This document shows positions 37,740 to 64,000 of a stretch of DNA of 64,000 nt, in pieces. Position 1 is the first letter of the stretch; the number at the start of each line of letters is the position of its first letter. Source of the DNA: Paramacrobiotus metropolitanus (taxonomy: Eukaryota > Tardigrada > Eutardigrada > Parachela > Macrobiotidae). Both the position numbers and the translations under genes were made by a program. The notes under the pieces were generated by a model. It saw only the letters and a list, made by a program, of their open reading frames with translations, had not been told where the DNA came from and did not search any database. The stretch spans positions 248,001 through 312,000 of the forward strand of contig NW_026570305.1 of the NCBI RefSeq assembly GCF_019649055.1, in the 5' to 3' direction.

Positions 37740-40700
37740 ATGAACCGGTCGTTTGTATGGAGTACATTTGTCGTCCTGGCGTGGTGCAGAGGCTGCACTG
37801 CTTCAGAATTACCAACAGGTAGAGACGGGCCGTCTCAAAAACAGCCACAGATACAAATTATTGCAAGACTAAGAGTCTTAGTAAGAGACTTAGTACTAAG
37901 TTTTATAAAGCATTTTGTGCTTTATTTGGCTGATCATGCTCATGAGCTGATTACGATTACTTACTGGTTAGCTTGAAATTTTTCGAGTGCTTAAATAAGC
38001 ATTCACGTTTTGTTTAAGGGCGGCAAATAGGAAATCAGGTAAGATAATAGAACAACAAAGTCTATTCTGACAGCTAATGAACATTTTGAGAAAGTTTTGT
38101 TGCCAAAAGCCAGATTGTTTTTTTTGCCCACCCAAAAGGTCAACCAGTTAAAATTCGCCGCTTTTGCTCTGTACTTCTGGAATTTAGTTAAGTACGTGCT
38201 TGTTTTTCTGCTTATCCTCTTTTTCTCTCAATCCTAGCTGCAAACGTTGCTCCGCTCTGGAATAACCTTGTGATTAAGCATGCCGTGAGTTTCGTTATTT
38301 TGTACAACTTGAAACGCTTGAGACGAACCAGGGCCATCCCAGATTTAGCTAATTAGGCGCACGTAAACATCGTTCTCGGCGGCATGGTTGTCTTATGTGA
38401 AGACCAGCAAAACGGCAGTTAGGTAATACGAAATACACAATTTGGGCAAGCTGCAGCAGTACAGTACAACACAAATGGCAACAACAACAGCCGTCCCATG
38501 CTGTGTTTACGAGGCGGTCATTGATATTTTAATTGGTATTGCTGCTGCCGCAGTTTGTCTGATTTTGTCTTCTAACATGGGATGAACGGCTAGTTCACCC
38601 CTGTGCGCGAACAGAAACGGAAACTGAACGCCAACACACTGCACACTTTATCTCCCTCACATACATCACATCAAAGGCCACCGCAGCACCTTGCTGCGGG
38701 GCACATCCAGCTCAGACGACGAAATCTAGCAACTGAAGAATCTACCAGATTTAGAATCTGGTAGATGGAGAAAAACACGGCAAAAACAGCAAAACAACCT
38801 AGCAGCCGCCTGTGCGCGGGTGAACGGAGAGGCCACTCCTCCTTACAGTCTAATCACTTGGCACAACATTACCCTATACCATCATATTACCAAACCTTAA
38901 GGTTTAAATAATACTAATATTAAGGTGTAGTAATATTATATTTAGTAATATTAGTACTAAATGTTAAGATTTAGTAATACATATTATGCCTATACAATCA
39001 TATGCCTCGACAATGTTTCAGGGCGGATTTCAGTGCAAAATGTACTAGGAAAGTGCAAAATGGACCAGTAGCAGAAATGTAGCGGGGTGCCCACTCCTCC
39101 TTACAGTCTAATCACTTGGCACAACATTACCCTATACCATCATATTACCAAACCTTAAGGTTTAAATAATACTAATATTAAGGTGTAGTAATATTATATT
39201 TAGTAATATTAGTACTAAATGTTAAGATTTAGTAATACATATTATGCCTATACAATCATATGCCTCGACAATGTTTCAGGGCGGATTCGAAGAATCAGTG
39301 CAAAATGTGTACTAGGAAAGTGCACTCGCTTTTGGCGGGCACTGCATGACCGAAGCGTAGCAGGAATATAGCTAGCCGAACCAATGTACTTGATGTAAGC
39401 CAGCTGGTGGTTTACGTTGTGGCTTGACAGTGTTTTATGTAAAGCGCTGCTATTAAGATTGCAGGTACTGATAACAGGTAAGCTGCACTCGTACAACTGC
39501 AGGTAAACAGGCTAAAACTGTATTATAGCCCGGACCTGCCTGGTGCAGCTAATACCACATGTACCGTCAATGCCGCACAGTCTTAATAGCAGCGCTTTAC
39601 ATAAAACGCTGTGCAGCCACAACGTAAACCACCAGCTGGCTTACATCAGAAGTACAAGGGATTGGTTCGGCTAGACACATTTTTCCCCTATATAAGATAG
39701 ACGTAATAAATATAAGACAGATTCATATTTAGGACGTTTCCGGTGCCGTTGCATTATATGATGTTTACAATTATTAGCATATTTTGAACTCGTTTACAGC
39801 ACTTTATCTTCTGCAGAGCTACCGCAAATTAGTAAAATGGATGTTACAGCAAAAATCTATAGCCGGTACATACAACAAAAAAGTACACCAAAAATCCATA
39901 ACCGGTAAAACCGCCCAGACAGATACGAACATTTCGTTGCTCTTACAACTGCGTAAATTCTTCCCGGACAGTTTCTTTAGCTGTGCAAGTAAAGTTCTTC
40001 ATGCTGGAATCACATTTCGAATCTCAGAAAGTTTTTGAATTCCCTAAAGCAACACACACATGGCAACTTTTCAATAATGTTTCTAATTTAGCAGAATTCA
40101 TTCTGATTCATTCATTCTAAGTAATTTTTCTAATATAAGAATTATTTTTCGATGAAGATTTTGTTTCGTCTTGGTGATATTCAGTCTACGCTGGCTGCAA
40201 TTTAGGTATTTATATGTAAAGGTAATAGATTACGGCAATTGTTCAAAAATTACGATTTCGGTGTGAAACTCTCATTTCATCGTTCTTGCCGAAGGTTGCC
40301 TCTTCAACGATGGTCAGGCGAGGGGGCAACAGAGAGTCTGGTAAGAGTTTTTGATGGACGTTTCTACCGGTCACAGTCGCAAATTTTAGAAAACCTAGAG
40401 GGCGGCATATATTTGGGACAAATTACGACGGACGGTTAGCAGAGCCCGAAGATGACTGTGCCGGTATTACGTAGAGGCATTGTTAGACAACACTTTTTAA
40501 ATTTTATCTATCACAGAAATGGCAAGGGATGTAGTTTTGGCTTTTTTTATTTCGCCGCATACGCAACACATTACAAACATCGCACATGGAGCTTCGTGTT
40601 ACTTTTTTCCGTACGAGGTGGTGCTTTATCATCGAGCGGCTCAAGTATTCTAAAGTATTTTTGGAAAAACATCTGCATAAGGATAATACTTAGTTAGTAA

Positions 40701-43700
40701 ATAGCGCACCGGAACCAAAGGGGATTGGAACCAAAGAAATAACACCACGGCTATTACTAGCCGTGAGTGTATAAACGGCCACCACCGGGCCCTTTCCGTT
40801 TTGTGTGCGGTAACCGACGGACGATACCACCAAGTTCATGGGGCGTTAGTATAACGGCCATGGAGCTGGTGTGTATCCAGTAACAAATACTACTGTCCAT
40901 ATGTGCATTTGGTGGCGGTGACCGACACACAGACACCACAAATTGTATGTATCGTGAGTATAAACGGCCACTGTATCTATTCACTTTCATATGCGGTAAC
41001 CGACGGACGGATAGCACCAGTTACATAGGCCGGGAGTACAGATATATGCGGCCACGGCGCATGTGTGCATTTGAAAGAAACGGCCACTGCGCACATGTGC
41101 ATTTGGTGGCGGTGACCGACGGACGGACACCACATTTTCCATATTCGCTGAACATAGATGACCTTCGCTACGCTTCGGTCGAATATCTTTAAATTCCGAT
41201 GCCACAAACATAGAAGTACAAAACAGCTTCTTATTAAAACATTTTTTGTTTAGACTGGGAAGCGTACATTTCTCCAGAAATCTTGGAGAGATATGCCGGA
41301 AAGCCGCCTGATAATTCTTCGGCTGAGCCGCAATTCGAGGAAGACATCCTGGGCATCGATCTAGCTGAGAACGAGATGAATGTCAGTTCCACCACAACGG
41401 CGGAAACTGTGTAGAACCATTCGCTTTGCAGCGTGGCTGTATGTTTATTTTTTGTTTAGTTTTGCATACAGTTACCCTATTTTGTAGGCGTCGCACACAG
41501 ATAATAACTTTTTTGACACCTCGTACTCGCGTTGGCCCAGTGGAATCGTTCCTTTTGAAATCAGCACAGCCTTCAGTCAGTAATCGTTTCATCATTTTTA
41601 CTTAATATTACTGAAGTACCTAGTACCTAAGTTGAAGTACCTAAGTTGTCAATAAGTAGCATGCTGAAACGTATTTCAACTTTTAACAGCTGAAGAAGAA
41701 AGATTTACCATCCAAACGACCCTAGAAAAAATGTCTAAAACCACCGGGAACTGCATTAACTTCGTTCCTCGCATGCACCATCGGGACTACGTGCAGTTCG
41801 TCCGCAGCAAAGAGTAAGTCGCAGCACGGCCTGACAGCTCTGCACAGCCTGACAGCAACTCTACTGTGCAAGCAGCAGATATGTTTTGTGCATACTGCCG
41901 CTGTTGCTTGACCTTTCGCAATAACAGTCCTTTCGCGGCTTTGATTCACAAGCAGCAATAGGGCTTTATTCGTTTGTTTATTTAATTAGAATTCCTCGGT
42001 TAATAGACGAGTGGCTGCTGATCAAAGTAGTAGTTCTTAACTTAATAGTGAGTAATTTACGTATGACAAAATGACAAACCGTTACTCACACAATGTTTAA
42101 ATTTCTAGATGCTCATCCTATATCGGACGTCAGACGAGCGGTAGGCAGCTGATTCGGCTAGCTCCCGCATGCGCCTCAGACCCGGGAGACATTCAGCACG
42201 AAGCAATGCATGCGCTAGGTTTCTGCCACGAAATGAGTCGTCCTGATCGTGACCAGTATATAAAGGTTATTTACGAAAATATACCACAAGGTAGGCGCAT
42301 TACTTGTTAGTTGTCTCGTATGAACTGTCACAAACGATCCAAAATGTGACCCTATAATACTCTCAACAACTCTGTAAACTTCATCCATTTTTGCGTTCCA
42401 GAAAACTGGCACAATTTTGAAATTCGGGTGCGAAATACTCGCACTTTTGGCCTGCCTTACGATTACGCTTCAATTATGCATTATCCAATTTTTGCTTTCT
42501 CCAAAGACACGACTAAACCAACCATAATTCCCACCAAAAAGCCAGCACAGTGCATTGGACAGAAATATGGCATAAGCTACCTGGATGTGTTGAAAATCAA
42601 GATTGCTTATGGCTGCTTAGACGAATCGCAGATCAAATCAACTAACTGGACAAAATATTTACAAGAGAATACAATGTGCTCGAAAGGTACAGACACTTAT
42701 GCAAGAGCATCTTAATCGTTTTGAACGGCGTATAACATTTTGTTCGCGATGTAAAGCACGAAATTATTGACAAAATAGCGGCTGTGCAAGAAAAAAGGCT
42801 GACAACAGTAACTGTGAAAAAGAATCATTGGAGCCGGCATAGTTAAACATCATTTCATTCAGCATCATAAATATATAAGATTGTCTGCGTTCTCAAGACT
42901 GCTCATACGCTTTTGTAAATTAAATAAGGTTACATCAATAAATTCTGCTTTTCAGTGGCTTTGCGACCCAGTGAAGGTTTTGAAATTGGCAAGGATTACT
43001 TTTCCCCGTTAAAGACTCACAGGTTAACCCTGCAAACCGATAAAAACCTCGTAATGTATCGCGAATGTGACGGGAAGTCTGTATTCGCTACTTTTACTTA
43101 TGGTTTTCCGAAAGTCAAAGCAGTGTTGAATGAGGACGGGCAATTTGAAATGGAAACATATGTGAGCGCAAAGGAATCGCAGCCACTCAGATACTGGGGT
43201 TCTGAAACATGGGGGTATCAAGGCTCAGAACTGTTCGTGTCGGACGCGGGATACTTTTACTTATGTAATTACGCACACGGATGTTATTGGCGCTCTAGCG
43301 GCCATCATATTCGCGGCTGCAACGGAACTACTAACTATTTCCCATCCATAACGTACAAATATCGAGGTAAGTAGTAGGTAATTACTCTGAGTTTTAATAG
43401 TATCCTGCACGAAAAGTAGCGGCGAAGTTTGGCCGGCGTAGCGGCCAGGCTGCTGACTGAACGTGATCGGCTTTAGCTCTCACTCGCCTACACTGTACAG
43501 TATATTCACACCGTACAAAAGTCTGGACAAAAGCAGTGTAACAGTACTTGTACAGTACTTTAGTAATAATTATTTATGTATCCCATAAAGTCATAATTAT
43601 AATTACCCACAGCAAGCACAACAAACATCGTCATCACCTAGTAATTCGTCTTTCTTCGAAATAATAAGACTTAGTGGTAATGAGTGGGAGCTAAATAATT

Positions 43701-46337
43701 ACTACACAGGTGATGGTACACGACGACTACTTCAAGTACCGCAAAGATAGCAAAAACGATGACATTTTTAAAATCGGATGGGGTCTGAGTTCTGACTTAT
43801 CTGAGTCAAATTTATGTCGACTTTCTCAGCGACAATGTCGACAAAATTAACTGTAATTGCAATAATTTAGCAAACAGATCCCATATTGGTAGTTTTAGCA
43901 CTAACCGTGTACGATGACGAATAAATTGAAAAGATGTTTACGCCTGCAAACTGTCCGGCCTATTAAGCACACCTTAAAATTTCTGAAATTGACAAGTAAC
44001 CAAACTAGCAATAATGTCTTGTTAACAGTGATCATCAAATCCGGAGAGAACTTGGACCTCTCATCCACATACCTCTCTTACAATGAAGAATTTAGCGTGA
44101 CAGTACATAAACGAAGAGCGATTGTGGTATGGCGAAGATGTGATAATCGGCAAGCATTTCGAGCAGTGGCCCGGAAAGCAATAACCAGCATTACCCTACA
44201 TGGGACAGGTAATCTAGTGGCATATGCGGCGGATCAGTCGTATGTCTGGTGGTCGGGTACTGATGGATCCAGCCATTTAAAGCCGGAGCTACGACTGTAC
44301 GATAACGGATTCCTTTACCTGTGCGATGTTAATGGATGCTACTGGCAGTCAAGTGGCTTCCTGGATAAGTGTTCTGCAAATACGCGCAAATTATCGCACA
44401 AACACAAAGTGTGTGCGACCTTATGGTACGAGACAAACTATACAAAAGGAGAGACTCCAGTCGTGGCAGGAACGGAGAGCAACGTATACGAAACTTCCCA
44501 AGATAAATTTAGTTCCGCTAAGGTAACTTTGGACTGCACTTTGGTGCTATATAGTCATGTGAACTATGGTGGAATTTCCACCGCTTTTACCTCAACTGGC
44601 CCAACAAAGGATGGATATCGCTGGTACACGTTTCAAGGCCAAGGATGGGATAATACTGCCCGTTCGCTGCGATGTTATTGTTCACGAGGGCAGAAAATCG
44701 TGGCCGCTGTTCCACATAAACAAACTGATTTGGAAATACAAGAATCGGTCTGTGCTACCTTGTGGTGGGAGTCAAATTACACTGCACAGGAGACGGTAGT
44801 GGCTCGCAACAGTGATTTTAATCTGGACAAAACTATGCAGGACAAAATCAGTTCCGTCAAGGTGACGTTTGGTTGTACATTAACACTTTACAGCCAGATA
44901 AATTTTCTCGGAAATATGACGAGTTTCACTCCTGTCCGGGATGGATATGGATGGTACAGCTCGCTCGGAAAATCTTGGGATAATACTGCACGCTCGCTAA
45001 TATGCTACTGTCGTGATCACCAAGTGTCGGTTCCTACAATAACGATCGAAGCTGCAGGTCAACAGGAATCACTGTGCGCCGTTCTATGGACAGATCCGGA
45101 CTTTACACTGGGAGAAACATTGGTGAATAATGGTGCAGAAAGCAATCTAGATGCTAGCCTCCATGCTAAATTTAGTTCAGCTAAAGTTACACCGGGATGC
45201 ACACTAGTGGCATACACTCTAATCAATTTCAAAGGAAAGGCAACGGTTTATTCTCCGGTGAATGAAAGTCATATTTTCTTTTTATTCGAGGGTGATGGGA
45301 ATACCACGGCGCGATCTATTAAATGCTTTTGCAGTTCAAATCATCCAAGAGACCCAACGTTGATGCTCACTTCTGAGACAAGTTATTCCCAGGCTCCACG
45401 ATGTGCCTTTTTTTGGCTGGATGCAAATTACGAAGGGAGCTCCTGGTATATAGATGCCGATACAGAAGGCAATATCGTCGAAGCCGCCATAAACAGTGTC
45501 AGCTCCGTTAAGGTCACGCTTGGATGTGTACTGGTATTTTATAGCTCGAAAAATTACAGAGGAATCGCCACGGGTTTCTGCCCAACTGTAGAGAACGAGT
45601 TGCACTACTCTTTCCAAGGCCGATCCTACGACAATACTGCACAATCATATCGGTGTTTTTGTTCTCGACTAAATCCGGAAAATAAAGCACTCACACCAGA
45701 TATTGGTGCAGAGCGTCCCAACTTGCAGGAAGGACTGTGTGCTGTTCTTTGGTTGGAACCAAACTTTACAGGAGTCGAAATACCAATCGGAAGAGGAACT
45801 GCTGCCAACCTGCATACAAGCATTCATGATAAAGTCAGCTCTGCAAGGGTTACAAAGGGATGCCAGCTAACTATCTACTCGGTAACCGACTTCCAAGGAA
45901 TTTATGCACCTTTCAGCCCATCCGAGGTAAATGGTCGCTATATCTTTGATAATAAAAATTACGATAATACTGCACGGTCAGTTGAGTGCTATTGCTCTCT
46001 CAAACGGCGGGCACTTTCAACAAGTATGCCAACATTGTACGCCGGAGAAAAGGTTCCGCGGAAGCCCGTGTGTGCATACCTGTGGCTGGATCCGGATTAT
46101 TCAAACGGGGAGACGACAATAGCTGTCGATGAACAAGGAGATCTGTCAGTTCATTTGCAGGATAAATTCAGCTCAACTATTGTGACGGTCGGCTGCACGC
46201 TCGTAACATACAGTTTGACCAACTTTAAAGGGAATGTCACGGCGTTCACTGCTACGGGCAACGAAAATAAAGCGTTCTGTTTCCAAGGACAGAGTTATGA
46301 TAATGATGCGCGATCAGTAAAGTGCTACTGTTTTTAG
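37740..46337 (+). CDS. Secreted astacin metalloprotease with lectin-like and six crystallin-like domains (gene A)
   Basis: Exons 37740-37818, 41254-about 41385, 41690-41813, 42109-42290, 42402-42686, 42956-43366 and 44029-46337; phases agree; about 1173 aa. Signal peptide (FVWSTFVVLAW), propeptide with FEEDILGID, then the catalytic zinc motif HEAMHALGFCHEMSRPDRD near residue 141 and Met-turn SIMHYP. Next come two bulb-lectin-like domains; the first has the full Q-x-D-x-N-x-V-x-Y motif (QTDKNLVMY). Last are six repeats of about 90 aa, each with four Cys, a QDKFSS-type motif, an LYSxxNYxG-type motif and DNTARSxxCYC. This resembles beta/gamma-crystallin domains (inference). The exon 2 donor is weak (A|GTTCC) and is placed by phase. 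The ATG is internal relative to gene B. Confidence 0.85.
38833..39348. repeat. 258-bp tandem duplication in intron 1 of gene A
   Basis: Two copies, 38833-39090 and 39091-39348, starting CCACTCCTCCTTACAG. The first about 196 bases appear identical and the remainder differs by small indels. Rich in TTAAGGTTTAAATAATACT palindromic motifs. Confidence 0.85.
39375..39671. mobile_element. 297-bp TIR element in intron 1 of gene A
   Basis: Inverted ends of about 100 bases (GCCGAACCAAT..., with GTAAGCCAGCTGGTGG inside) fold back almost completely. TA flanks both sides (39373-39374, 39672-39673), within CTAG. No coding capacity; a mariner-type MITE. Confidence 0.8.
40767..41140. repeat. Degenerate minisatellite in intron 1 of gene A
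   Basis: About five diverged units of 75-110 bp. Each contains GAGTATAAACGGCCAC, ATATGTGCATTTGGTGGCGG and GTAACCGACGGACGG followed by CACCA. It ends about 110 bp before exon 2. Confidence 0.75.
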
Positions 46338-48040: not shown

Positions 48041-48152
48041 CAAGTCATACGGTAAGCTGTCTTCTGGAGGCTAAAATCCCAACCAAAACCATTGATATAC
48101 TTTGTTCAGGCTGATTATTTAATTTTTTAACTGCAACCATTGGTACTGTACC

Positions 48153-51100
48153 ATGCTGGTTGTCTGGCGGAATGTTCTAAACTGGTCGTGTATCTGGACC
48201 GTTTTCATCGTCCTGTCGTGGCCCACTGGATTCGTTGTTTCTGAGCTACCTGCTGGTATGTACCGGATGTCTAGATGAAAAACTACATTGTTCCAACTTG
48301 TGCCTGTGTATACAGTTATAAATTTTATATCGATGCACAAAACAAAGTAAAGATAGAATCCAAGTAAAAAGTTAAACTAAACCGTGCCACTGTTTGTTTA
48401 ATTTCTTTGTTTAATGTGTTCAATGTTGTGTAGATTGGGAATCCTACATATCCCCAGAAATTTTGGACCGATATGCCGGAAAGCCAACTAATGACCCTTC
48501 CGCTGAACTAAAATTTGAGGATGACATCCTGGGCATCGACCTAACCGAAAGCGAAACGGACGTCAGTTTCACCGTAACCGTGAATTACTGATTAATTTTG
48601 TTCATTTGTTCATTTTGATTTAAACTGTTTTGTGCAGGCCTGTACCATTATTTTTACAGACAGCAGATACGGGAAACAACTTTTTCGATACTTCATATTC
48701 GCGATGGTCCGGTGGAATCGTACCTTTTGTAATCGCCCCATCGTTCAGTCAGTAGTCATTTCCGAACGCTGCTTAAAATTACTGAAGAAGGTAACTAATT
48801 GAAGTGCCTAACTGGATGTTTTAAACTTTTCAGCTGCAGAAGAAAGACTAACCATCTTGACTAGCCTCCAGAAAATGTCCAACGCCACCGGACACTGCGT
48901 AACATTCGTTCCTCGCGTCCACCATCGGGATTTCGTGCGATTCTTGCGGCATACAGAGTAAGCCACCGTACTGTCTCGAAGCAATACAGCACGTTTTTGC
49001 GCGTTATCTGTACAGCCAAGTTTCATGCTGATCTCGACACGGTGAACCTGCCATGTCGCCGTTAACCATAGACTGCTGTATATTACGTCGGTCTGCACAC
49101 AGATGCAGACTTAACACTATGTATGAAAAGAAGAAGACTAGTCTTCGCATAGGAATAGTGTTAACGTCTTGTTTTTGGTTTGTCTATGGAGATTTGTAAC
49201 CAAAATGTTACACGCCTTTGATTCGCCCATTTTAGGGGAGTGGTTTAGTATTTTCCGGAGGGCAAAACCCTGCTGAGCGCAGTGAGTCATCCATACATAA
49301 AGATACTGTATACGTTATGCATACAAGGACTAAGTATATACGGCTTGTTTTTGAATGGTTAATACTTTTTAAGAGGGTAGTTTAGCATTGCTGGCAGTGT
49401 AACTGTGCAACCATCCACAGTTGGTTTAGTTACTTAAGTAAGCCGCTGACCGCTGGTTGCGTTCCAGACTCCATCGAATTGAACGCTAGCTTTGAGTGTT
49501 ATCGACTCATTCAATTTTGCTGAATCACCCAAGCATGGACTTTGTAAGGATATTAGCACTTACGTTTAACGCAAAAGCCAAAAACATTTAACGCATACAT
49601 GCACAAAGATACAAAATCAGAAATTTAGCAAATTTTCTGATTTAGAATTTGCCTTTTCAGTTGAAACCGGTCAAGGGAAAATACTGATTGCCGGTTCCCG
49701 AGCACTACAAAAACTGAAGGAGGCGGCTGTGGAGTAAAACGTACAAAATCGGTTTTGCATTCTTATCACTTATTCAAAATGAACTTAAACGTTTCATAAG
49801 CGTGATTCCGCATGTATTGAAAATTCTTGGCAGCGACAAAGGTTGTCACAGAAAGCAGCATGTTCTAAATCTTTGAAGTTGGTTTGTTTTAGACAGTGAC
49901 TGATCGAGCCACAAGAGTAAGGAGTTATCTTGCAAGTCCGAGAGAAACAACCAGCCGTGAGAAACTGCATTAAACCGTCGCCTGTTTGCGATTGCATCAG
50001 TTACAGTGCACCTGTTACGGGTTTTTTCAAAATATCAAATTTTTTAAGTTTTGGTTCGATCCACACCTAAGGGGCTAATTTCAACATTTCAGGCAGGAAA
50101 TGGGTGGTAGAATGAGCACATTCTCATTCCAGCAGCACGCTGCTGGAATGAAAATCTTCAAAAATTCGTAATTTTGTTATTTTGCGTGCTGAATTTTTTA
50201 TATGCGCTTAAAAAGATAAAATAATATATACTATTAGGAAGAATAACTGATTTTCTGGTTTGGTCTCAAGGTTTGGGACGCAGAGCATACGTGCTCAGCA
50301 TAGCCCGCCTATGAGAAATCTCGAATGAGTCTTCCATAGACAGGTACTTATGTTAACAGCAAAGGCTCACAGTGAATAACCCAGAAATAAAAAAAAAACT
50401 GAGAATCAGTTTTTTTGCCTAACGGTATGCGTTATTTTGTATTTTTTAAACTTATATAAAAGAATTTAACACTAAAATTTACAAAATTACGAATTTCGAA
50501 GATTTTCATTCCAGTAGCGTGCTCCATGGGCCACCGCACGCGCACTTCAGCTACGTTGCTGCTAGACAGCTGGCAAAATTTTGCCAGCGGCCCAGCAGTA
50601 TGGCAAACAAAATCGACAATTGATTCAAGAAATAAGAATGGACTGCTTCGTAAATAGTATGCTCTCGTCGTACATTGTATAATACTTAACTACCCTCCAA
50701 AATTGTTGCAAAACAGTTGCGTGTCACAATTTGGTTACTGACTCCCGTACACTGTTCAGAAACAAGTCGTATAATTATAGACTATAGAAAGTCTCATGTA
50801 TTCTCGATAAATACCACGACCGACGGAATTATTTCCGCGAGGAAATGCCACGAAGTGTTTTTTATTTCACCTGTGGTACAACGTAATTTTATAATAATTG
50901 AAAACATCAGTCAAAGACCATAGACTGCTTCGTGGTTTGTTCGACACATAAAATATTGCCGATTACTGTTTACTGGTACGCCGATGGCCCGATAGGCGTA
51001 CTAATCGTAGGAGTAATCGGTTTCCCAAACCTAGATAATAGCCTCGACAGAATAGTTCGCTTTCACTTCTCCGTAATTTTTCTCATTTAAATCACTGAGT

Positions 51101-53616
51101 TTATCCTCGAAAAAAATGCCCAAAGCACATGGAAGAGAACTGCATCAGTTTATTCGGCAAACGCCATAAAAAAATAATAAAAAAGTGCGTACGCGTATCA
51201 ATACTTAGGCCTCGTCCCGAATTCAAAGCGAATCTCGTTGCGATACAGCAACTCCACCTCGCGAGGTGGCTTTGCGTACCGTATCTGTAGGCGTGGCCAC
51301 TGCATACAGCCACCTCGTGCGGTTGAGCAACCGTACCATAGCGAGATTCGCTTTGAATTCGGGACAAGGCCTTAATATGATCCAGATAGGAGAAGAGAGC
51401 TGTGTTATGTAAAATACGTTACGCAGTTACCCCCATCCTGTCAGAAAGTATCGGAATGCCGAAATTATTTCACAACCAACCTGCGATCTTTGATTTCGCA
51501 GGTGCTCGTCTCATTTTGGGCGTCAGGGAGGCGGACAGCAGCTTCGGCTCTCTCCTGCGTGTGCTATGGACCCGGGCGACATTCAGCACGAAGCGATGCA
51601 TGCGCTAGGTTTCTTACACGAAATGAGTCGTCCCGATCGTGACCAGCACATTAGCATAAATTACGACAATATACTACAAGGTATGCATTATCTGGAAATT
51701 GGAAAACAATTTCGACAGTTGTTTCTAACCTGATCATCTGCATGCAGGCAACCGACACAATTTTGATATTCGGGTGCGAAATACTCGCACTTTTGGCCTA
51801 CCTTATGATTACGCATCAATTATGCATTATCCAGTTTTTGCTGCTGCAAAAGACAAAACGAAACCGACCATAATCCCCACTAAAAAACCGGCGCAATGCA
51901 TTGGACAGAAATATGGCCTAAGTTTTCTTGATGTTGTGAAAATCAAGATCGCGTATGGTTGCTTAAGCGAATCAGAATTCCAGGCAACTAATTGGACAAA
52001 ATATTCACTGGAAAATACGATGTGCTCAAAAGGTAAAATACAGTTTAGCTTTTAACGACGTCAAAAGCGTCAAGGTGGTTGCTGCACGAGTATGTTTACA
52101 ACAGGTGCAATGCGCGTGACGGTCAGAATTCTTCGCAGACTGAACAGAACTTTCTGCGCGATTTCAAATATTAAAATAATTTAATAGTGTTACCGAATAA
52201 AAATCAAAATAAATAAGAAATCAAACTTCGATGTTATATATTTTTAGTGGCTTTGCGAACTAGCGAAGGTTTCGAAACCGGCAAGGACTACTTTTCCCCC
52301 TTAAAAACTCACAGATTAATTCTTCAGTCCGACAAAAACCTAGTAATGTACCGTGAATGTGACGGAAAACCGGTCTTTGCTACCTTCACATGGGGTTTTC
52401 CAAAGGTCAAAGCAGAGCTTGATGAGAATGGGCAATTTCAAATCGAAGCATCAACTGCAGAGGAGGCGCAACCGCTCCAGTATTGGGGTTCAGGAACATG
52501 GAGCTACCGAAGCTCCGAGCTGTTTGTATCGGATGCGGGATATTTCTATTTATGCAACTACGCAGTTGGATGTTATTGGCGCTCTAGCGGTCAACTCAAC
52601 AACGGCTGCAACCGAACTACCAACTATTTTCCACTCGTAGCTTATAATTATAGAGGTATGTGCACGATGCAACCCGTATTCCAGTTGCAAAACTTAATGT
52701 TGAAATTTAAACTTGATTTCGTCTGCCGCCGGTGACCCGTAGTTGCAATTCTTTAGTGGCCAACACTTAACTTTAGAGTTTTTGGCAATAAAAACCCACG
52801 ATGGCCATATGAATAAATTACTGTATAAAATAGCTGGCAATCAGCATCATCGTTACATACTCACTGATTCGTTTTCTCTAGTTAACATTGTTGTTACTTG
52901 TTGTTACCTGAGAAACTAACAATAACATCTCATGAACAGTAATCATCAAAGCCGGAGAAGATTTGGACCTATCATCCACATACCTCTCGCCAAACGAGGA
53001 ATTTAGCCTGGCAGTGCACGAGGAAAAAGCCATTGTGGTATGGCGCAGATGTGATAATCGGCAAGCGTTCAGAGCAGTAGCCCGGAACGCAATAAGCCGT
53101 ATAACCCTGCATGGGACCGGTAACTTAGCTGCACATGCGGCGGACGGCTCGTATATCTGGTGGTCCGACACTTATGGATCCAGCCAGCTGAAGCCTGAAC
53201 TGCGACTGTACGACAACGGATTCCTGTATCTATGCGATGATAACGGATGTTACTGGCAGTCAAGCGGATTCCTGGATAAGTGTCCTCCAACCATACCCAA
53301 GTCATCGTACAAAGTGTGCGCGATTTTATGGTATGAGGCCAATTATACAAAAAGAGAGACACCTGTCCTTGCAGGAACGGAAAGTGTTCTACACGAGGCT
53401 TCCCAAAACAAATTCAGTTCCGCTAAGGTATCTTTGGGGTGCGCTCTGACGATTTACAGTGAAGTAAACTATGCGGGAGCTACAGATACTTTATCCCCAA
53501 CAAGGAAGGGATATCTCTGGTATTCGTTTCAAAACACTTCATGGGATAACGCTGTGCGTTCGCTGCGATGCTCCTGTTCAAAGGACGAGATGGCGGAATT
53601 TCTCATTCACAGCTGA
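48153..53616 (+). CDS. Secreted astacin metalloprotease with lectin-like domains and one crystallin-like domain (gene B)
   Basis: Exons 48153-48255, 48434-about 48565, 48834-48957, 51502-51680, 51748-52032, 52248-52655 and 52940-53616. Five of the six completed introns have clear GT-AG borders and all junctions are in the same phase as in gene A; about 635 aa. Signal peptide (WTVFIVLSWPTGFVVS), propeptide (FEDDILGID), zinc motif HEAMHALGFLHEMSRPDRD near residue 149, Met-turn SIMHYP, two bulb-lectin-like domains (QSDKNLVMY in the first), then a single crystallin-like repeat (QNKFSS, IYSEVNYAG). Known: astacins are secreted zinc endopeptidases activated by propeptide removal. Inference: the lectin and crystallin-like parts target it to glycans or matrix. 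Intron 3 carries two inserted elements. Confidence 0.87.
50134..50523. mobile_element. 390-bp inverted-repeat element in intron 3 of gene B
   Basis: The left end (AGCACGCTGCTGGAATG, then AAAATCTTC) and right end are inverted copies for about 45 bases with a few mismatches. The left tip also makes an 11-bp-arm hairpin with the flank. No clear target duplication. Probably a MITE. Confidence 0.6.
51208..51371. mobile_element. 164-bp PIF/Harbinger-type MITE
   Basis: Inverted ends of 30 bases (GGCCTCGTCCCGAATTC and GAATTCGGGACAAGGCC, one mismatch) with TTA on both sides (51205-51207, 51372-51374). TTA target duplications are typical of PIF/Harbinger. The inside is itself partly self-complementary (CCACCTCGCGAGGTGG). 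Confidence 0.8.
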
Positions 53617-54076: not shown

Positions 54077-54258
54077 CAACCGGCTGCACAGCCGTTGTTA
54101 ATGCCTTCGCAGCTATCTGAAGAAAATTTTAGCTTTTAGCAATCATTTTAGCTCTTAGCAGCAGATTCTCATAGCTTTGCAGCAGTAACAAATTTTTTGC
54201 TCTAGCATACTTATTTGTGCAATAAATTGTGACCTTTTCTCGACAATCGCCGACAATC

Positions 54259-54861
54259 ATGGTTTCAAAGAATGAACTGAAGAAGCTGAAGGTTCCGCAG
54301 CTCAAGCAGGCATGTCGTGACGCTGGGTTGGATGATACTGGCGTCCTTCTGGCCCGCCTGGATGCCCATAACAGCATTCCACCATCACGCATGGAAGATG
54401 TTATAGAGACCAACGCCGCGGCCGCACCGAATGATCATTCTGTTGGACCTCCAACCGCAATAGCCGCCGCTGGACCGTTGGCGGAACTCGCTACTGTATG
54501 TGGCCTAGCACCAGCAACCCTGTTTGACTTGGAAGAAGCCGGCTTCACCAATCTTGACAAACTTCGCCTCCATCACTGGCATGTTCTATTATGCAAGTGG
54601 TGCTCCACGGCAAAAGCCATAATCGACAACGCGAAACCAATGAGCAAAAAGCCGAATACAGCACCAGTGGCCGGGATCCCCACTGGGGCCGCTTGTGATT
54701 CCCATTGTACTTTCCGCTCGCGGATCCTTTGTGCGTTGAACGTAATGGTTTTGTGCACCGCTGCTTCTCTTTGTACAATTCCTTGTTGGAACATTCTCAG
54801 CATTCTACGAAACGTTTATCTATTTGGATACTCATTTTATCTGGAATCTCAACTGACTTGA
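54259..54861 (+). CDS. SAP-domain ORF
   Basis: ATG in good context (ATCATGG). Residues 1-37 match a SAP motif (LKKLKVPQLKQACRDAGL, then LLARLDAH), a short DNA/RNA-binding helix-turn-helix of chromatin proteins. An Ala-rich linker follows, then a second helical segment with LAPATLFDLEEAGFTNL. From about 54573 on it runs antisense to the last exon of the ionotropic receptor, so the C-terminal third may be an accident of that overlap or be removed by splicing. 200 aa if unspliced. Confidence 0.5.
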   Translation: MVSKNELKKLKVPQLKQACRDAGLDDTGVLLARLDAHNSIPPSRMEDVIETNAAAAPNDHSVGPPTAIAAAGPLAELATVCGLAPATLFDLEEAGFTNLDKLRLHHWHVLLCKWCSTAKAIIDNAKPMSKKPNTAPVAGIPTGAACDSHCTFRSRILCALNVMVLCTAASLCTIPCWNILSILRNVYLFGYSFYLESQLT

Positions 54862-56775
54862 AATTATTACTTACATCTTCGAAAACGGCTTGTACAACGG
54901 GGAATGCCTTTTCAATTGATATGTCGATACAAAGTTGAAGATACCAATCCGCGCAGCGCGTGCAAAACTAGCGTTCTGGCAGTCCGGAATTTCGTCCATG
55001 GCGCAGATTATGGTGATTTTTTCCGTCTGCGAAATATTATTTCCGTAGCGCATCAAATCCCTTGCTGAATTCGAAGCAGTATACAGAATGCTACGGTTAA
55101 TGGCTGATTTCAGTTCAGCTGAATTCTGTAAGTAAGAGCAAGTAATAATTCAAATAAGCATGCCCTTTGTCCTATTTATGAGCTTCTTACCAATACCAAG
55201 TTGGTAGCGCGATTGACCAATGGGTTGAAATCCGACTCCAGAAAATCTTTTACAGTTGAGAAAGGTGGCGTTTGTATTGAGCTGGTCAGTCTGGCATTCA
55301 AACGGGCAACAATCACAGAAGAAATCACCAAGCAGAACAGTGTCCAAAACAAGGCTACAAAGTAACTGCTGTGTAGATATTTTGGAGGCAGCAAATCGTC
55401 TGAAATCAGATTGACTGAGTTTTTCGCACCAATAAACTTTGTCACATATTAAAATTTAGTTCCGTCGGAGAGATGCTTGCCTTGGTTGAAAAAACTGGCA
55501 AACATGTCCCAGCTCATATTACGCATTCGTTTCCGACTGAGCCGAAACGCCACAGACAACTTCTGACCGGTTGCAATGCAGTTATTGGCACTCTGGACTA
55601 GCCACATTGTGCAGCATGCAACCAAGCAGGTTATCACAATGCCTATCCACGATCCCCATTTGAAGCTCTTAATAATTCCCCATAACAGCGCTTCCGACAC
55701 TCCGCCAGTTGATTCTAGATATCGCGAGTGGACTGCTAATTGGTAATCGCGAATGAGGAAGGAATGGATGAGGTCGAAGTGGCGCATGCGATCCGGTGAG
55801 GCGAAGAGAGGGGCAACACTGAGGGTTACACGACCCGCTAAAGCGTCGGCCGGTGGTCCTTCGTAGGAGGTATTCTCCACACTAACACGGCTGCCATCGT
55901 AAATAGGCGCTTGGAACTGAAGGCTGCAAATTTAACTTGTTTTAAGCAGCCGCGTAAAACGCAACGTCACTCTATTTGCTGATCATACGGGGCATTATCG
56001 ATTATTCTAAGTGTTTCCAACCAAATTTACTTACGTTTGGTAAACTTATTTTGGAATGTGTCAAGTTGTGGCTCACCGTGATTTCTTAATTAAAGATCGG
56101 TTTTATGTCCAGCTAAATAAAAGGTCACCCAAACCCGCGTAAAAGTACAACCATTTCAAAAACTTGCATAAAAGGAGAATATGAAAAAGAAAATTTTAAT
56201 AACGAAATTACAGTACAAGTATCTGAGATAAAAAACCGCAATCTTTTATCTGAAAAAACTGAACGCTTCAGAGTACATACGGCATTAACAGCCATATTAA
56301 TTATTATGCGATTAGCGGATTGTCATATATTATAAAAAAGCCGGTGATCGACCGATCAAATCGTACGCTGTAATTAAAAGTAAAAGATGAATAAAATAAG
56401 CGAAAGACAGTTCAGTAGAGTGATTGTAACACGTGCAAACACACTGCGGGGTACAACTTTTTTTTGTCTGCGGTTTTACCGGTAATGGAGATGTTTGGCA
56501 ATAATCGACAGCAGGCTCACGGATATCCCGCAAAAACAGCCAGAATCAGCCGGTGCTTCGTAACTGTAGGGCGCAAAATTAGCGACACTGGCATATAAAA
56601 TCGCATCTGCAGCCGCGGTGGTGGTGCTAGTGATATCTCGATGGCGAGAGGCATCCAACTGACCATTACATACGGTATAACCCAGTTCGTTGCAGACCCT
56701 TGTAATCCCATCCATTCGGGTCGAAATTCTGGGCGATGGTGAAGACGTTGGCACAATCTGTGCTCCCATCGCCAT
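54573..56775 (-). CDS. Ionotropic receptor (iGluR-like chemoreceptor channel), five exons
   Basis: Exons 56775-56480, 55923-55481, 55399-55191, 55125-54875 and 54804-54573 with consistent phases (2, 1, 0, 2); about 476 aa. Ligand-binding lobe S1 (FAPYSYEAPADSGCFCGIS, then VAPLFASPDRMRHFD), TM1 (WIGIVITCLVACCTMWL), pore (MFASFFNQ), the next membrane helix (WTLFCLVISSVIVARLNARL), S2, and TM4 in the last exon (GAVFGFLLIGFALSIMAFAV). Known: ionotropic receptors are ligand-gated cation channels used in chemosensation. Intron 2 is 81 nt with GC-AG borders. No signal peptide is seen; an upstream exon may be missing. The glutamate-binding Arg is not evident. Confidence 0.82.
55400..55480 (-). other. 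GC-AG intron inside the receptor pore region
   Basis: The frame here is open except for one TAA (55449-55451). Reading AAG|GCAAGC as a GC donor and CTGATTTCAG as acceptor removes exactly 81 nt and restores the spacing usual for the pore loop. Without this the gene would carry an in-frame stop. Confidence 0.6.
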
Positions 56776-57926: not shown

Positions 57927-59906
57927 TTAGATTCCTTGCAGCTTCGCCAGCTTTATACAGAAGTGCTGCGTCAGATGGGAGAGCTTTTCCATTTTCAAAT
58001 TTTGAAGACCTTCGATGCACCATTGTTTCTCGCGGTAGTGCGATGACAAGCGCGGGTCCACTGTCTGCGTCGCACACAAAGCCTGCAAAAACGATATGAA
58101 GAAAAATTATTTAACTAATACTAACCGGACTCACCTTGCATATTATTTTGGTACTTTTTGAATCTGCGTTCTGTAAAGCTGTATGAGACTGCAGCCACTC
58201 GGATAGCGTTTCCAACTGCTCGCTGCTAAGTGCCGGTAACGCAGCTTCCAAGACATCCCACATTTCGCAGCCGAAATCAGGGAGCGTTTTCACCTTTACC
58301 TTGGGACTGTTATTCAACAAATGTAATCGCAACTCCGAAGGAGAACCGCCAAATATGGTCCATTCCAGAAGGACAGTACAACCATTCAGCTGAACGGCTT
58401 TACACGGGAGGTCCCGGCATAACTCAATGAAATCATGAAGACCAACAGCAGATAAGCTTAGTTTTCCGTATTCTGTTGATTCACCGCGATGCAGCACGCA
58501 CTGGTTGTAACCTACATGGTCGTAACGATTGCCGAATACCAAACGATATTGCAAGTTAACCCAGTGGACGGTTTTCAGATGAATTCCTCCGTTGCGTACG
58601 GCAACGTAGTGTATCATTTGCGGGACATTCAGCAAGAAATCCTTGGCTTCCATCAGCCGACGCTGATTAACGACGACGATGCGCTGCGTGGATGCGGTAA
58701 GACATTTAAAGATCGGTGACAACAGGTCATACTCCAGACGGCCAGAACTCTTCTTCTTGTTGCTCCCCGAGTTCGTGATAAGAATATTTGCTGTTAATGT
58801 AGGAGACTCGAGGATAGAATTCCATCCTGGACAAACCACACGCAGGGCTGTCTGTGTCATGGTGTCCAAATGGGAGAAGACTTCCAACCACAGCTCCACT
58901 GGTAGTTCTCCGAAATGATCGCTGGATGCCGAATCAGTAAAGTCGGGGCTGATTCTATCGATGGTGCGTTCAAAGTGTTCATGGAAGTCTTCCCGAGATT
59001 TCTGCAAGAGCCCCCATCACTGATTAGTCAATAACTCGCAAGTTCGTAACGTTGAAAAATTCTCCTATGACGCGTTTTGTATCAGTCTACAAAAACCTTG
59101 TTTTTCCAGAGATTTTACAGACACCCAGTGCCGGCGTGCCGCTGTACCTCGAAAACTGGATTTTCGGCTTTACTTTCGCCTGTTAAATTACAGGCTCGAG
59201 TGTGACGCACGATATAGCCCAGCCGTCCATCAACGATTTCCACTAAAGAAACTTCACAGGAATATCTTGATCCGAAAATCATCTTGGTACGATTCAGTTG
59301 CTTGAGCAATTTTTCAGCAGAAATCGAGCTAGGGCATTTCGGTATCTGCACACTACCCTTAACGAACTCCCCGCTTTGGACGCAGTTAACCATTTCGCGC
59401 AGTGTATCCGAATCCCCCCACCACGAACGAGCAGGCACCAGCGGGAGTGGGAGTGGAACATCGTGAGTTCGACCCAGTCTCATCCAAAACTCACTGGGCA
59501 GACGATAGCGCACACGTTCAATCGGGACGAAATCCGAACAGCTTGTTCCATTCCGCCAGCTTACCACGGCCACATGGCAGGCTGTGTGGCAGATTCCGCG
59601 ATTTATATTGACAATTTCCGCGGGGAACCACGTCCACGGGCCGGAAGGTGAGTCCCGCATTAAGACTTCTACTGGTTTCGTAAATGCCCTTCCACCATGG
59701 AATTCCCCTTGGTGGACACGGCGCGATTCGGTGGAACGGTAGATGCGATCGAAAGGAATAAACTGTCGTCGTCGCTCAGGACACAAAAGATCAACGAATA
59801 GACCGTTATCGGTCACGTCCACCACGCGTCCGCAGCGAAAGAGCCCGTCTTCGCCCAAGACGTCCGCGGTGTTGGATTGGTAAATTCCAGTAGGCATTTC
59901 TTGCAA
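57927..59906 (-). CDS. FMRP-like Agenet/Tudor module fused to F-box, copy 1
   Basis: Exons 59906-59148, 59001-58135 and 58082-57927, all phase 0; about 593 aa. Exon 1: two Agenet/Tudor-like units, residues about 15-55 (VVDVTDNGLFVDLLCPERR, IPFDRIY) and 70-130 (WTWFPAEIV, VPIERVRYRLP), then a segment that may correspond to the KH0 region of FMRP (about 170-235). Exon 2 opens with an F-box (LPVELWLEVFSHLD, VCPGWNSIL) and continues with unassigned sequence. Exon 3 is a conserved 51-aa tail (LTQHFCIKLAKLQ). Known: F-boxes bind SKP1 in ubiquitin ligases; Agenet/Tudor units bind methylated residues. Inference: a substrate adaptor. Confidence 0.72.
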
Positions 59907-61104
59907 GTTGCAACAAATGTCAATCCTATTATTATTCGACTAACGATAATCAGGGCGTGTAATTTGAATTCTTCCGGTATAAGTTGCAAATTGGTGGCAG
60001 TTGGGGATGCTACCGTAGTCGAGTATGCGTACTTTTTTAATACCGATGGAACCAACAAATTCAAGCATCCAAGTTAAACTTCAAACAAGCGACACAAAAC
60101 CACTGACGGCTTAAATGGTACGCGCACACCGCGCTTCGTTTCGCTGGCTGGAATGCCAAACCTTGTGAAACGCGCTACTTGATGCGTACAAGTATGTGTT
60201 CTGATTCACAGATAAACATGCCAGTAGTACAACGTAGTATGCCATGCATATAATACAACTTGTATCATACAAGCCCGTTTTCAAGCCCGGGCTTGTACAA
60301 TACGATTACGAACTTGAACGTCAAATTTTTGTGTAGCAGCCTAGCAGGATATACGCGCGGCACGCATTCCTTCTTGTATCGTGCGCCATAAGTGCAGTTT
60401 CGTTCCACTTTTACCTCCAAACGACTCGTTTACACTTTGGAATTTCCGTCGTCAGTTAAGCGCCCTATCTGCAACATACAGGGGCACATGTTGAAGTCTA
60501 CATGTTAGTTTTATTCTTATTATACTACTGGACCAGGTAGTCCACTTCCGGCTAGAGTGACGTACGTATGCTGTATGGCGTCAACATGAGACGCTGTACA
60601 AACTCATTACGAAACACGCTTAAATAATTAAAGTCCAATCGTTCCAATAGAAGTATCGAAAATATCAGAAGAATTACAAGTACAGAGTCTGTAGAATCAA
60701 CGAGAAATATCCACAATGCATTAAACTTCCAAGGTACAAAGTAGTTTTCCCAGCTTTTTCATTCGCTTTGACCGGATTATGACAGAAGTCCTTACGATAC
60801 CAATTTGAGCCACTGATTCGCGTCGGGCAAAAGCCAAAAGGAGGCAATGCACTTAGAAATGATCGATGAATCAGAAAACGTTTCCAGCAAATCAAAGTTA
60901 TAAGATGTTATAAGACAAAAAAAACGTTTCCAGCAAATCAAAGTTACAAGACGAGTATGTTTGCATGCTGCGAAATAAACTGACCACCGAAGCGGAACAG
61001 AAAAAGTCAGCGGTAAGTACGAGTAAACTCATCGCCACAAAATCAAATCAGCATAACCAGTCTTCGTAAAAACATATCTGCCAGCCGCTGTACTGAAGAA
61101 GTTA
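59907..61104. other. Intergenic region between the F-box paralogues
   Basis: No gene. Contains a palindromic ACAAGCCCGGGCTTGT near 60281-60296, and a 32-base direct repeat (AAACGTTTCCAGCAAATC...) at about 60876 and 60923. The promoter of copy 1 should lie near 59907-60100. Confidence 0.5.
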
Positions 61105-63159
61105 TCATCCTCGTAATTTCGCCAGTTTAATGCAGAAGTGCTGTGTCAAGCGGGAGAGCTTCTCTAGTTGCAAATCTTGTAGACCAGCAACGCACCATTT
61201 TTTTCCACGGTAATGCGATGACGGACGTGGATCCGCGGTATGCATCGCACACATAGCCTGCAAAATAACCAATAATAAAAAACAATAATAAAACCAATAA
61301 TAAAAATAACCAATAACAAATAAATAAAAAACTATAAATAAATAACCAAAATAACCAGTAATAAAAAACCAATAATAAGTCACACTACGTTACGCAGCAC
61401 AGTAATAAAATAATGATAACTGCCACTACGGATTTCCGGAGCGTGTGCAACCACTAAATGCCGGTCGTTGAGATGACAGCATCGGCTTACCCAGCAAAGC
61501 AGTCTGCCATTGGTCGATGTGTATTCTCCAGCAGCGGACGATTGTATCCATTTGGACAAAATTTGCAGCTCGTCGCTACTAGGTGCCGGTAGCGCCGCCT
61601 CCAGAGCATCCCACACTGCGCAGTCGAAATCGGATGTGGTCTCCAGTCGCATCCTTGGGATATGAATTGGCACAATTAATCGGATCTGCGAAAATTGTGG
61701 ACCCGAAACCATCCACTCCAGATTAATAACGCAAGAGTGTAATTGAATGGCTTTGCAAGGGAGTTTCCGGCACGACTCAATGAAATCCGGGAGCCCAATA
61801 GTGGATACACTGAGATGGCCGGTTGACATGGCTGTGTTGCGATGCAGCACGCATTCGTGGTAATCAATACTATCGGCACGGTTGCGGATTAAGAGCCGGC
61901 ATTGCAGATTTACCCAATGGATCGCTTTCAAATGAACCCCGGAATTTTGTTTTACAGTCCACTGTATCATGTTAGGTACGAGTACGAAGAAATCATTCAC
62001 GTCCATCATCCGGCGTTGATTGACTATGACAATCCGCTGCGTGGCTGAGCTCAGGCACCTATAGATCGGTGATAACAGGTCATACTCTATGCGGCTAAGA
62101 CTCTTCTGCTTATCGCTTCCAGAATTCGAGATAAGAATGTTCGCTGTCAACAACGGGAGATCGAGGATGGAATTCCACAATGGGCAAACGGCACGCACTT
62201 TTGTCTGCGTCAGAGTGTCCAAATGGGAAAGAACCTCCTGCCACAACTTAACCGGCAGCGCACCAAATGTATCTGTGGGGATCGGGTCAGTTTGCATACG
62301 AGCAATGTGTTCAATCAATCTGCGATGGAATTCTTCACCATGTGTTGCCTGAAAAAGCCGTCAAAAGAATTTTTCACATAACCGCGCATTTTTTAGATCT
62401 CACCGCGACTCTTGGAGTTCCGGCTTTCTTTCCATCGTCCACAGTTCGATAACGGTACACGATATACGACAGCTGCCTCTCCAAGATTTCCACGAAAGAC
62501 ACTTCGCAAAACTGTGCTAACTCGGAACGGACCTTCTTGCTGTTCAGTCGCTTTAGTAGTTCTTCAGTAGAAATCGAGCCGGAAACTTCGGGTATCTGCA
62601 GGCTGCCTTTAAAATAATCGCCGTTTTCAACGCAGCTCACCATTTCGCGCAGCAGTGCCGAACCACCCAACCACGAACGAGTGGACACGAATGGACGCGG
62701 TAGTTGCACAACATGGCTTCGATTCAAAAGTGCCCAAAAACCAGTGGGTAGCCGGTAACGCAGGCGTTCAATTGGAACGATATCTGTGCAGGTTGTGTTA
62801 TTGGTTTTATTCCACCACTGCACAACGGCTACCTGGCAGGGTGTATGAGCCATATTGCTTGGAAGCCCACTGAGAATTTCTACGGGAAACCATGTCCATC
62901 GCCCAGAAAAAGATTCTCGCATTAGCACTTCTATAGGCTTTTCTGATGTCGTCGACGCATGCAGATCCGTCGGCTTGACAAATCGGGTTTCGGTAGAACG
63001 GTAGATAATATAGGAAGAGACATGCTCTCGTCGCCGATCAGGGCATAGGAAGTCTATGTACAGTCCATCGGAGGCCACATCCACCACGCGTCCGTGCCGA
63101 AATAGACCATCCTTGTCCAGAACATCTACACAGTTAGGCTGATAAATTACAGCATGCAT
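61105..63159 (-). CDS. FMRP-like Agenet/Tudor module fused to F-box, copy 2
   Basis: Exons 63159-62404, 62348-61491 and 61257-61105, phase 0 at both joins; about 588 aa. Intron 1 is only 55 nt. Same architecture as copy 1: Agenet-like units (VVDVASDGLYIDFLCPDRR; WTWFPVEIL, VPIERLRYRLP), possible KH0-like segment, F-box (LPVKLWQEVLSHLDTLTQ) and the same C-terminal tail (LTQHFCIKLAKLRG). Intron 2 holds an A-rich AATAACC/AATAATAAAA simple repeat (61262-61380). Conservation of all three exons between the copies supports both gene models. Confidence 0.74.
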
Positions 63160-64000
63160 TTTGAGGCGGGACCCTGCATTAAGCGATCACGGCAGCCTGC
63201 GGCTGAACTAAAAACTACTGCGATATGGATTACTAGAGTAATGGTTCGCTCCACTGCGCCTCCAGATAACAGCATAGCCTAGTGTTAGTCAGTGATTCAA
63301 CATCAATTTTCTGCTGCTGTCAATAGACACGGAAAAGACTTACGTTATACCTTTGTACAAATCGGCTAATATCATGCAAGCCGATGAAACAACGAGACCG
63401 ATAAGAAACAAGGTGTGACTAGCAGGCAAATCCTTACAGTTTAATCATGCGCCTAGTGGACCACCGCGGCGCTCACATGTGATCAAACTCACCAAACCAG
63501 TTGAACGAATAATAATTATTCACTATGATGTAGCGAGACGTGCCGGAACTCAAGTGCGGCAGTACTGTACATGTGAATTTGATAATTATTATGGAAGTCA
63601 GCCGGTCAGCACGAATACACACTGCATACAGCGCGATGACTACTTACGTATTCAGCAGTATATCATTTCCGGATGACTAACCCTCGCTTTAAAATTTTTC
63701 GTGTAGTTCTGGAACGTATAACAGTTATCTAACTCGAACTTCTCCTGCATTGGCTGGCAACGAAATATCTGTGCGTAATGCAGGTACGTGTCTAAAGAAA
63801 TGGTTTTAACGTTTAATAAACAGTGACGGGTTATATTAATGGAAAACAGACTGTAATGATAATGAGAAATAGTAGACTTTAATCTGCCGAACATTGACAG
63901 TACGTACCATGCCGCGCTATAGTATACACAGGCCATTCGCCCGTGCAAAGAGACTCCGGTACGCTGGAAAGGTCGATACCGGTTTTTGCCGAAACTCAGC
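63160..64000. other. Right edge of the window
   Basis: Upstream of F-box copy 2. A minus-strand stretch at 63690-63768 has an acceptor, a CYTF-containing frame and a GTTAGT donor, but it could not be linked to any other exon. Confidence 0.4.

Follow-up and report, generated by a model that had tools for sequence, protein, structure and literature searches.

What can stand behind the catalytic domain of an astacin protease, and what would such a tail do there? The question is raised by LOC129596021, a gene of the tardigrade Paramacrobiotus metropolitanus whose predicted product carries, in this order, a signal-like start, a prodomain, an astacin domain, two bulb-type lectin domains and six beta/gamma-crystallin domains. 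The gene spans positions 37740–46337 (+) of the window, meaning the whole 64,000-nucleotide stretch analysed (C85:248001-312000, contig NW_026570305.1, of the 169.8-Mb genome), from the ATG at 37740 to the end of the stop codon at 46337; the original prediction, made from the letters alone, had placed it exactly to the base. Domain and profile searches together with structure prediction uphold the fusion of astacin, bulb lectin and beta/gamma-crystallin that was proposed there, and E-values, paralogues and the selection test rule out that the observation is due to chance. The catalytic, lectin and crystallin parts all belong to known families, and their combination is a new architecture.

The gene and its protease part

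The spliced model comprises eight exons and seven introns, all GT-AG, and encodes a product of 1201 amino acids (aa), which proved letter-for-letter equal to NCBI P0001 (uncharacterized protein LOC129596021, P. metropolitanus) when equality was tested. Exon 1 (37740–37818, +) provides the start codon and a signal-like hydrophobic stretch with a hydropathy peak of 1.86 over residues 5–15. The prodomain is encoded by exon 2 (41254–41381, +). FXGD is the aspartate switch motif of astacin prodomains; P0001 carries F54-E-E-D57 at this place, with Asp retained and Gly replaced by Glu, while P0005, P0006 and P0007 have FEGD. The catalytic domain begins in exon 3 (41488–41575, +; RWPSGIVPFEIS) and extends through exon 4 (41690–41813, +), which holds the Cys42 equivalent C120, exon 5 (42109–42290, +) with the zinc motif HEAMHALGFCHEMSRPDRD, and exon 6 (42402–42686, +) with the Met-turn and the Cys198 equivalent C272.

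Residues 84–272 match Pfam Astacin PF01400 at 1.8e-50 (171.7 bits against a cut-off of 22.5), covering positions 1–188 of the 189 in the profile. The zinc and Met-turn motifs, already described as complete in the original prediction, are indeed so: H170-EAMHALGFC-H180-EMSRPDRD agrees with HEXXHXXGXXH followed by EXXRXDRD, as the astacin motif is defined in the abstract of PMC9848320, and the Met-turn with its Tyr ligand reads S224IMHY228. Both cysteine pairs are present by position (C120/C272 and C141/C161). P0001 is thus far like other astacins of family M12A (crayfish astacin, BMP1/tolloid, meprins, nematode NAS), sharing with them the prodomain, the zinc motif, SIMHY and both cysteine pairs, and is probably secreted and active as a protease. 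Its tail is what differs: the partners named in Fig. 1 (legend) of the 2023 astacin review PMC9848320 include C-type lectin, ricin, pentraxin, LysM and others, but neither bulb lectin nor crystallin, and the word crystallin does not occur in that paper.

NCBIfam assigns the label LegP to the catalytic domain at 152.1 bits against a cut-off of 300, which we read as general astacin similarity. Intron 1 contains a direct repeat of 205 base pairs (bp) at 38825–39029 and 39083–39287, 99% identical, and a long inverted repeat at 39391–39648, whose 71-nucleotide arms are 94% complementary and spaced 116 nucleotides apart; the latter resembles a short mobile element.

The lectin and crystallin domains

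Introns of 269 and 662 bp precede the exons of the tail. The original prediction had referred the tail to exon 7; with eight exons in all, exon 7 (42956–43366, +) encodes the lectin domain D1, whereas exon 8 (44029–46337, +) encodes a second lectin domain, D2 (44031–44375, +), which had been overlooked, all six crystallin repeats and the stop codon. In a single-sequence search, D1 matches pyocin L2 in the PDB at 9.6e-7. A profile built from 11 lectin pairs, of which paralogues supplied ten, finds pyocins, a Scilla lectin and numerous bulb lectins of plants, with pyocin L2 at 2.7e-16, and PF01453 (B_lectin) matches all 11 rows at E<=0.1. The same family is annotated on the NCBI paralogue models P0003, P0004, P0008 and P0009 in precomputed database records. 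The AlphaFold2 (AF2) model gives the lectin part the bulb-type lectin fold, known as beta-prism II.

The lectin signature that had been noticed earlier is complete once: QTDKNLVMY in D1 is the sole full QxDxNxVxY among the six possible sites of P0001, the other five retaining between 0 and 3 of the five key residues. This first D1 site keeps all five residues in 11/11 lectin rows (the other two D1 sites keep 0–2). D1 may bind mannose-type glycans. The best sugar site of D2, HGTGNLVAY, has three of the five; across the rows, D2 site 2 is complete in 6/11, while P0007 keeps four key residues, P0001 and L038/P0008 keep three each, the first P0003 unit keeps two and P0002 a single one. Erosion of D2 thus affects both genes that carry crystallin, but some rows without crystallin as well; a hand-over of its role to the crystallins is only a thought. 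Each lectin domain has a CxxxxxxCYW-like cysteine motif near its end. With the monocot mannose-binding lectins and lectin-like bacteriocins (pyocin L1, putidacin L1, Scilla SCAfet), P0001 shares the fold, the tandem pair and the QxDxNxVxY of D1; it differs in being an animal protein fused to a protease, in having one complete site of six and in the additional cysteine motif. Also among the closest known systems is the C-terminal part of a fungal GH29 alpha-L-fucosidase (4ni3), a different enzyme with 12% identity.

The six crystallin repeats, R1 (44409–44684), R2 (44748–45014), R3 (45072–45335), R4 (45399–45665), R5 (45735–45998) and R6 (46068–46334), all on the plus strand, measure 88–92 aa each and are 35–58% identical in pairwise comparison. 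All have the four cysteines described earlier, to which R4 and R6 add a fifth, and these cysteines would form disulfides. The DKFSS motif is shared as a serine-rich place rather than as a fixed string, since R2, R3, R4 and R5 read DKISS, AKFSS, NSVSS and DKVSS. In whole P0001, PF00030 (51.8 against 25 bits), PF03995 Inhibitor_I36 (67.4 against 21.1 bits, 1.1e-18) and PF15138 are all above their cut-offs, and R4 is the best stretch of the full protein for both Pfam Crystall and I36. Taken singly, 21 repeats were matched at E<=0.01 by PF03995 in 13 cases, PF00030 in 7 and PF15138 in 4. The AF2 model shows the double Greek key of the crystallin fold, so that the crystallin-like character first suggested for these repeats has held. 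The YxxxxY/FxG signature, as given in the relevant passage of PMC3551895, is present in the second Greek key of all six repeats and in the first key of two, where W replaces the first Y.

Arginine at the fifth place of the crystallin calcium motif lowers calcium binding; in the second motif of R1–R6 this place is Arg in five repeats and Gln in one. Crystallin stability is reportedly gained at the cost of calcium binding, going by a cited title (Suman et al. 2011). The canonical motif N/D-N/D-X-X-S/T-S, in the wording of the same passage of PMC3551895, occurs at 0/12 sites in R1–R6 and at 0/42 sites across the 21 repeats; three of its four positions agree at 10/12 and 30/42 sites, respectively. 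With such non-canonical motifs, calcium binding by R1–R6 would be weak or absent. Microbial-type beta/gamma-crystallins (clostrillin, Flavobacterium 3hzb, Protein S) and I36 inhibitors have in common with P0001 two Greek keys per repeat, YxxxxY/FxG and the position of the serine-rich motif; P0001 differs from them by four conserved cysteines, by its six-fold tandem and by a calcium motif off by at least one residue at every site.

Related architectures, cysteine loss and selection

LOC129596021 is one of several related architectures in the genome and not a one-off. Downstream in the window lies a tandem paralogue, LOC129596022 (P0002, isoform X2, 663 aa; 48153–53616, +), its start taken from the open reading frame (ORF) at 48123–48278 and its end from the ORF at 52936–53616. 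It encodes an astacin followed by a tail at 52247–53580 (+) with D1 (52247–52615), D2 (52939–53283) and a single crystallin repeat (53314–53580). Searches of the animal's own genome returned 164 astacin matches, counted exon by exon with 150 of 445 candidates scored, as well as 30 matches for lectin D1, 41 for exon 8 and 22 for one crystallin domain standing directly behind an astacin. Pfam Crystall gave no match among the three candidates scored, a limit of sensitivity, since the single-protein queries give 22 to 41.

Architectures were read from the loci fetched around these matches. An astacin with one crystallin (class a) occurs at nine loci (two at L026, L028, two at L029, L030, L031, L032 and L036), with the last astacin piece and the crystallin in one stop-free frame in eight of the nine; the L032 stretch as translated has stops. 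The model of the second L026 gene (372 aa) matches NCBI P0005 (372 aa) at 100% over the searched region. An astacin with two lectins (class b) is found in P0007, whose lectins are those of L037, and in P0003 and P0004, which lie on a second contig and each hold two lectin pairs within one NCBI model. Both additions together (class c) are seen in LOC129596021, with six repeats, and LOC129596022, with one. Class d comprises the lectin-only NCBI models P0008 and P0009, the lectin pairs at L005, L009 and L010, which have no astacin match in the 3.4 kb covered, and the crystallins at L033, L034 and L035, which have none in the 5 kb covered.

Several of the relatives show peculiarities of their own. 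L027 (C85:319300-325500, −) contains a pair of lectin fragments together with fragments of four or more crystallin repeats, with stops and shifted frames, has no astacin match in the 6.2 kb covered, and is probably a decayed relative of LOC129596021. Two crystallin loci, C94:558519-558785 and C319:22497-22763, are almost identical and perhaps represent two haplotypes of one gene. Altered Met-turns are found in L029 gene b (SIMHSG, Tyr ligand lost; L029 5435-5644) and in P0007 (SVLHY), which are possibly inactive or altered proteases.

The classes differ in a cysteine of the catalytic domain. At the Cys42 place, located by eye as three residues before the Phe of the xRF motif, the eight readable class (a) loci have V, A, A, A, V, T, A and L, i.e. 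Cys is absent in 8/8 (L036 is unreadable here), and the equivalents of C64/C84 are retained. The first cysteine of the crystallin lies two residues past the astacin LY/MY, after the last helix, in L026 (both genes), L028, L030, L031 and L036; the two L029 genes have 19 and 13 further residues between the astacin end and this cysteine. In the lectin classes, P0001, P0002, P0004, P0007 and the first unit of P0003 have Cys at the Cys42 place, and YGC or YKC closes the chain. Judged from these alignments, loss of the C-terminal staple (Cys42–Cys198) accompanies direct crystallin fusion, and the crystallin may replace its structural role.

Between the two genes of the window, the ratio of nonsynonymous to synonymous substitution rates (dN/dS) is 0.18 for exon 5, 0.10 for exon 6, 0.09 for D1, 0.11 for D2 and 0.35 for R1, with dS of 0.71–1.46 over these five parts. 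The values point to purifying selection on the measured exons and indicate that LOC129596021 and LOC129596022 have long been kept as proteins, the crystallin part under looser constraint. Among R1–R6 themselves silent sites are mostly saturated, so the crystallin array is old.

Proposed function and alternatives

We lean, by a modest measure, towards reading the product of LOC129596021 as a zinc endopeptidase of the astacin family (M12A) that is secreted and, through its C-terminal tail, retained on surfaces bearing glycans. The protease would be made latent and then processed; the tail would tether it to glycan surfaces, D1 bringing one complete mannose-type motif, and the six cysteine-rich crystallin domains would most likely act as a stable, largely calcium-independent spacer or as a second binding surface. 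Binding would bring the enzyme to its substrate, be it the surface of prey or of a microbe, or the animal's own glycan-rich matrix. Cuticle, digestion and defence had been put forward as candidate roles in the original prediction. Several findings weigh against this proposal: the prodomain motif is FEED and not FXGD; PF01453 stays under its cut-off in P0001 (19.8 against 32.4 bits), matching D2 only, with no match of D1 at E<=10; the genome, searched with Pfam B_lectin, yields six places, one above the cut-off and none in this gene; the D2 sugar motif is incomplete both in P0001 (3/5) and in the neighbouring gene (1/5); and I36 matches more single repeats than PF00030 (13 against 7 of 21), which would suit a regulatory role as much as that of a spacer.

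Two special cases of the glycan-anchored protease narrow down its target. A hatching, cuticle or egg-coat protease, drawn from a large expansion and acting on the animal's own glycoprotein matrices, is a tentative and somewhat unlikely candidate: the number of genomic astacin matches and the names of relatives (hatching enzyme 1.2-like for P0006, nas-4-like for P0005) speak for it, but these NCBI names derive from the shared catalytic domain, and the main text of PMC11191345, on the P. metropolitanus transcriptome, has no passage with the words protease, peptidase or lectin. Given the likeness of the lectin pair to bacteriocins, the protein might instead be antimicrobial: the pair would bind bacterial surface sugars like pyocin L1 and putidacin L1 and the protease would be the effector. 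The best Foldseek and PDB profile matches of the pair are pyocin L1/L2 and LLPA, and NCBIfam NF033557 (LLB_putidacin) matches at 1.3e-12 in two stretches; however, its 47.7 bits are far under the cut-off of 275, the two domains are placed differently from those of the bacteriocins in the AF2 model (root-mean-square deviation of 16 over 187 residues), and single lectin domains from other proteins rank higher than bacteriocins in VIA-align. We consider this role unlikely.

The I36 match makes it possible that the crystallin domains regulate the attached astacin in cis, restraining or stabilising it, and that they derive from or act like the I36 metalloprotease inhibitors, which have a crystallin fold. 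With the full protein as query, no family matches the tail more strongly than PF03995, which is also the most frequent in single repeats, and at nine loci a crystallin stands directly behind an astacin, the Cys42 cysteine being absent from all eight whose exon is readable. Nevertheless, Pfam I36 denotes a sequence family and not an activity, six copies behind two lectins make an odd layout for an inhibitor, and the AF2 model of a direct fusion is poor in the C-terminal half of the protease (mean predicted local distance difference test score, pLDDT, of 57.3), so we make no docking claim and regard cis-regulation as quite improbable. Very doubtful is a scenario in which, in one tardigrade lineage, a crystallin captured at the astacin end replaced the Cys42–Cys198 staple and later joined a tandem lectin of mannose type, its number rising to six, with the crystallins regulating or stabilising the protease in cis (inhibitor-like) and the enzyme therefore being on only at a glycan-coated target. 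Finally, gene prediction might have merged an astacin gene with a separate lectin-crystallin gene, given the two introns before the tail, the lectin-only models P0008 and P0009 and the crystallins without astacin at L033, L034 and L035. Domain order and dN/dS of 0.09–0.35 argue against such a chimera: the tandem paralogue has the same order, astacins with two lectins occur on other contigs (P0007, P0003, P0004), the junctions are in phase 1, the NCBI model is identical, and eight of the nine other loci hold astacin and crystallin in a single frame with no interruption. As far as the sequence can tell, the protease exons and the tail belong to one gene, as first proposed, and a merger is extremely improbable.

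In three protein searches, 4 of 5954, 2 of 13 and 6 of 3539 candidates reached E<=0.001, a count that includes the records of the queries themselves. Outside P. metropolitanus, these searches matched only a bacterial lectin of Aquipuribacter (P0010, 1.2e-21), a Streptomyces lectin (P0011, 3.4e-8) and a protein from a metagenome (P0012, 9.1e-5). They returned no animal relative beyond the species, which is weak evidence of absence, as the searches were word-based and length-limited and the tardigrade content of the database was unchecked. A bacterial source of the lectin was sought in GTDB genomes, where none of 51 pattern-matching stretches was confirmed; an origin by gene transfer is a possibility, no more. 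The architecture thus recurs within P. metropolitanus and was found in no other species by these low-sensitivity searches, nor by literature and database searches whose coverage of subscription journals is thin. In the literature, we found no paper joining astacin with beta gamma-crystallin or bulb-type, nor tardigrade with bulb-type lectin. The earlier remark that no astacin with this combination is known therefore holds against the Fig. 1 legend of PMC9848320 and these limited searches.

Elsewhere in the window, two tandem genes encode F-box proteins (58111–59016, −, and 61380–62360, −; PF00646 at 2.1e-9 and 2e-6), each adjoined on the same strand by an ORF of about 270 aa without a Pfam match (59115–59939 and 62374–63186). 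Matches below cut-off were obtained for a ligand-gated channel at 55452–55931 (−; 0.0013) and a SAP domain at 54226–54858 (+; 3.9e-5).

Astacins differ chiefly in their tails, which are thought to set the site of action, and the present gene adds two tail types that PMC9848320 does not name among the partners in its Fig. 1 legend. The architecture by itself is not a new mechanism. The graded series within one genome, from astacin with crystallin and astacin with two lectins to astacin with both, could reveal the order of assembly, and the gene offers a ready way to test whether proteases anchored to glycans serve tardigrades in feeding, in defence or in the turnover of matrix.

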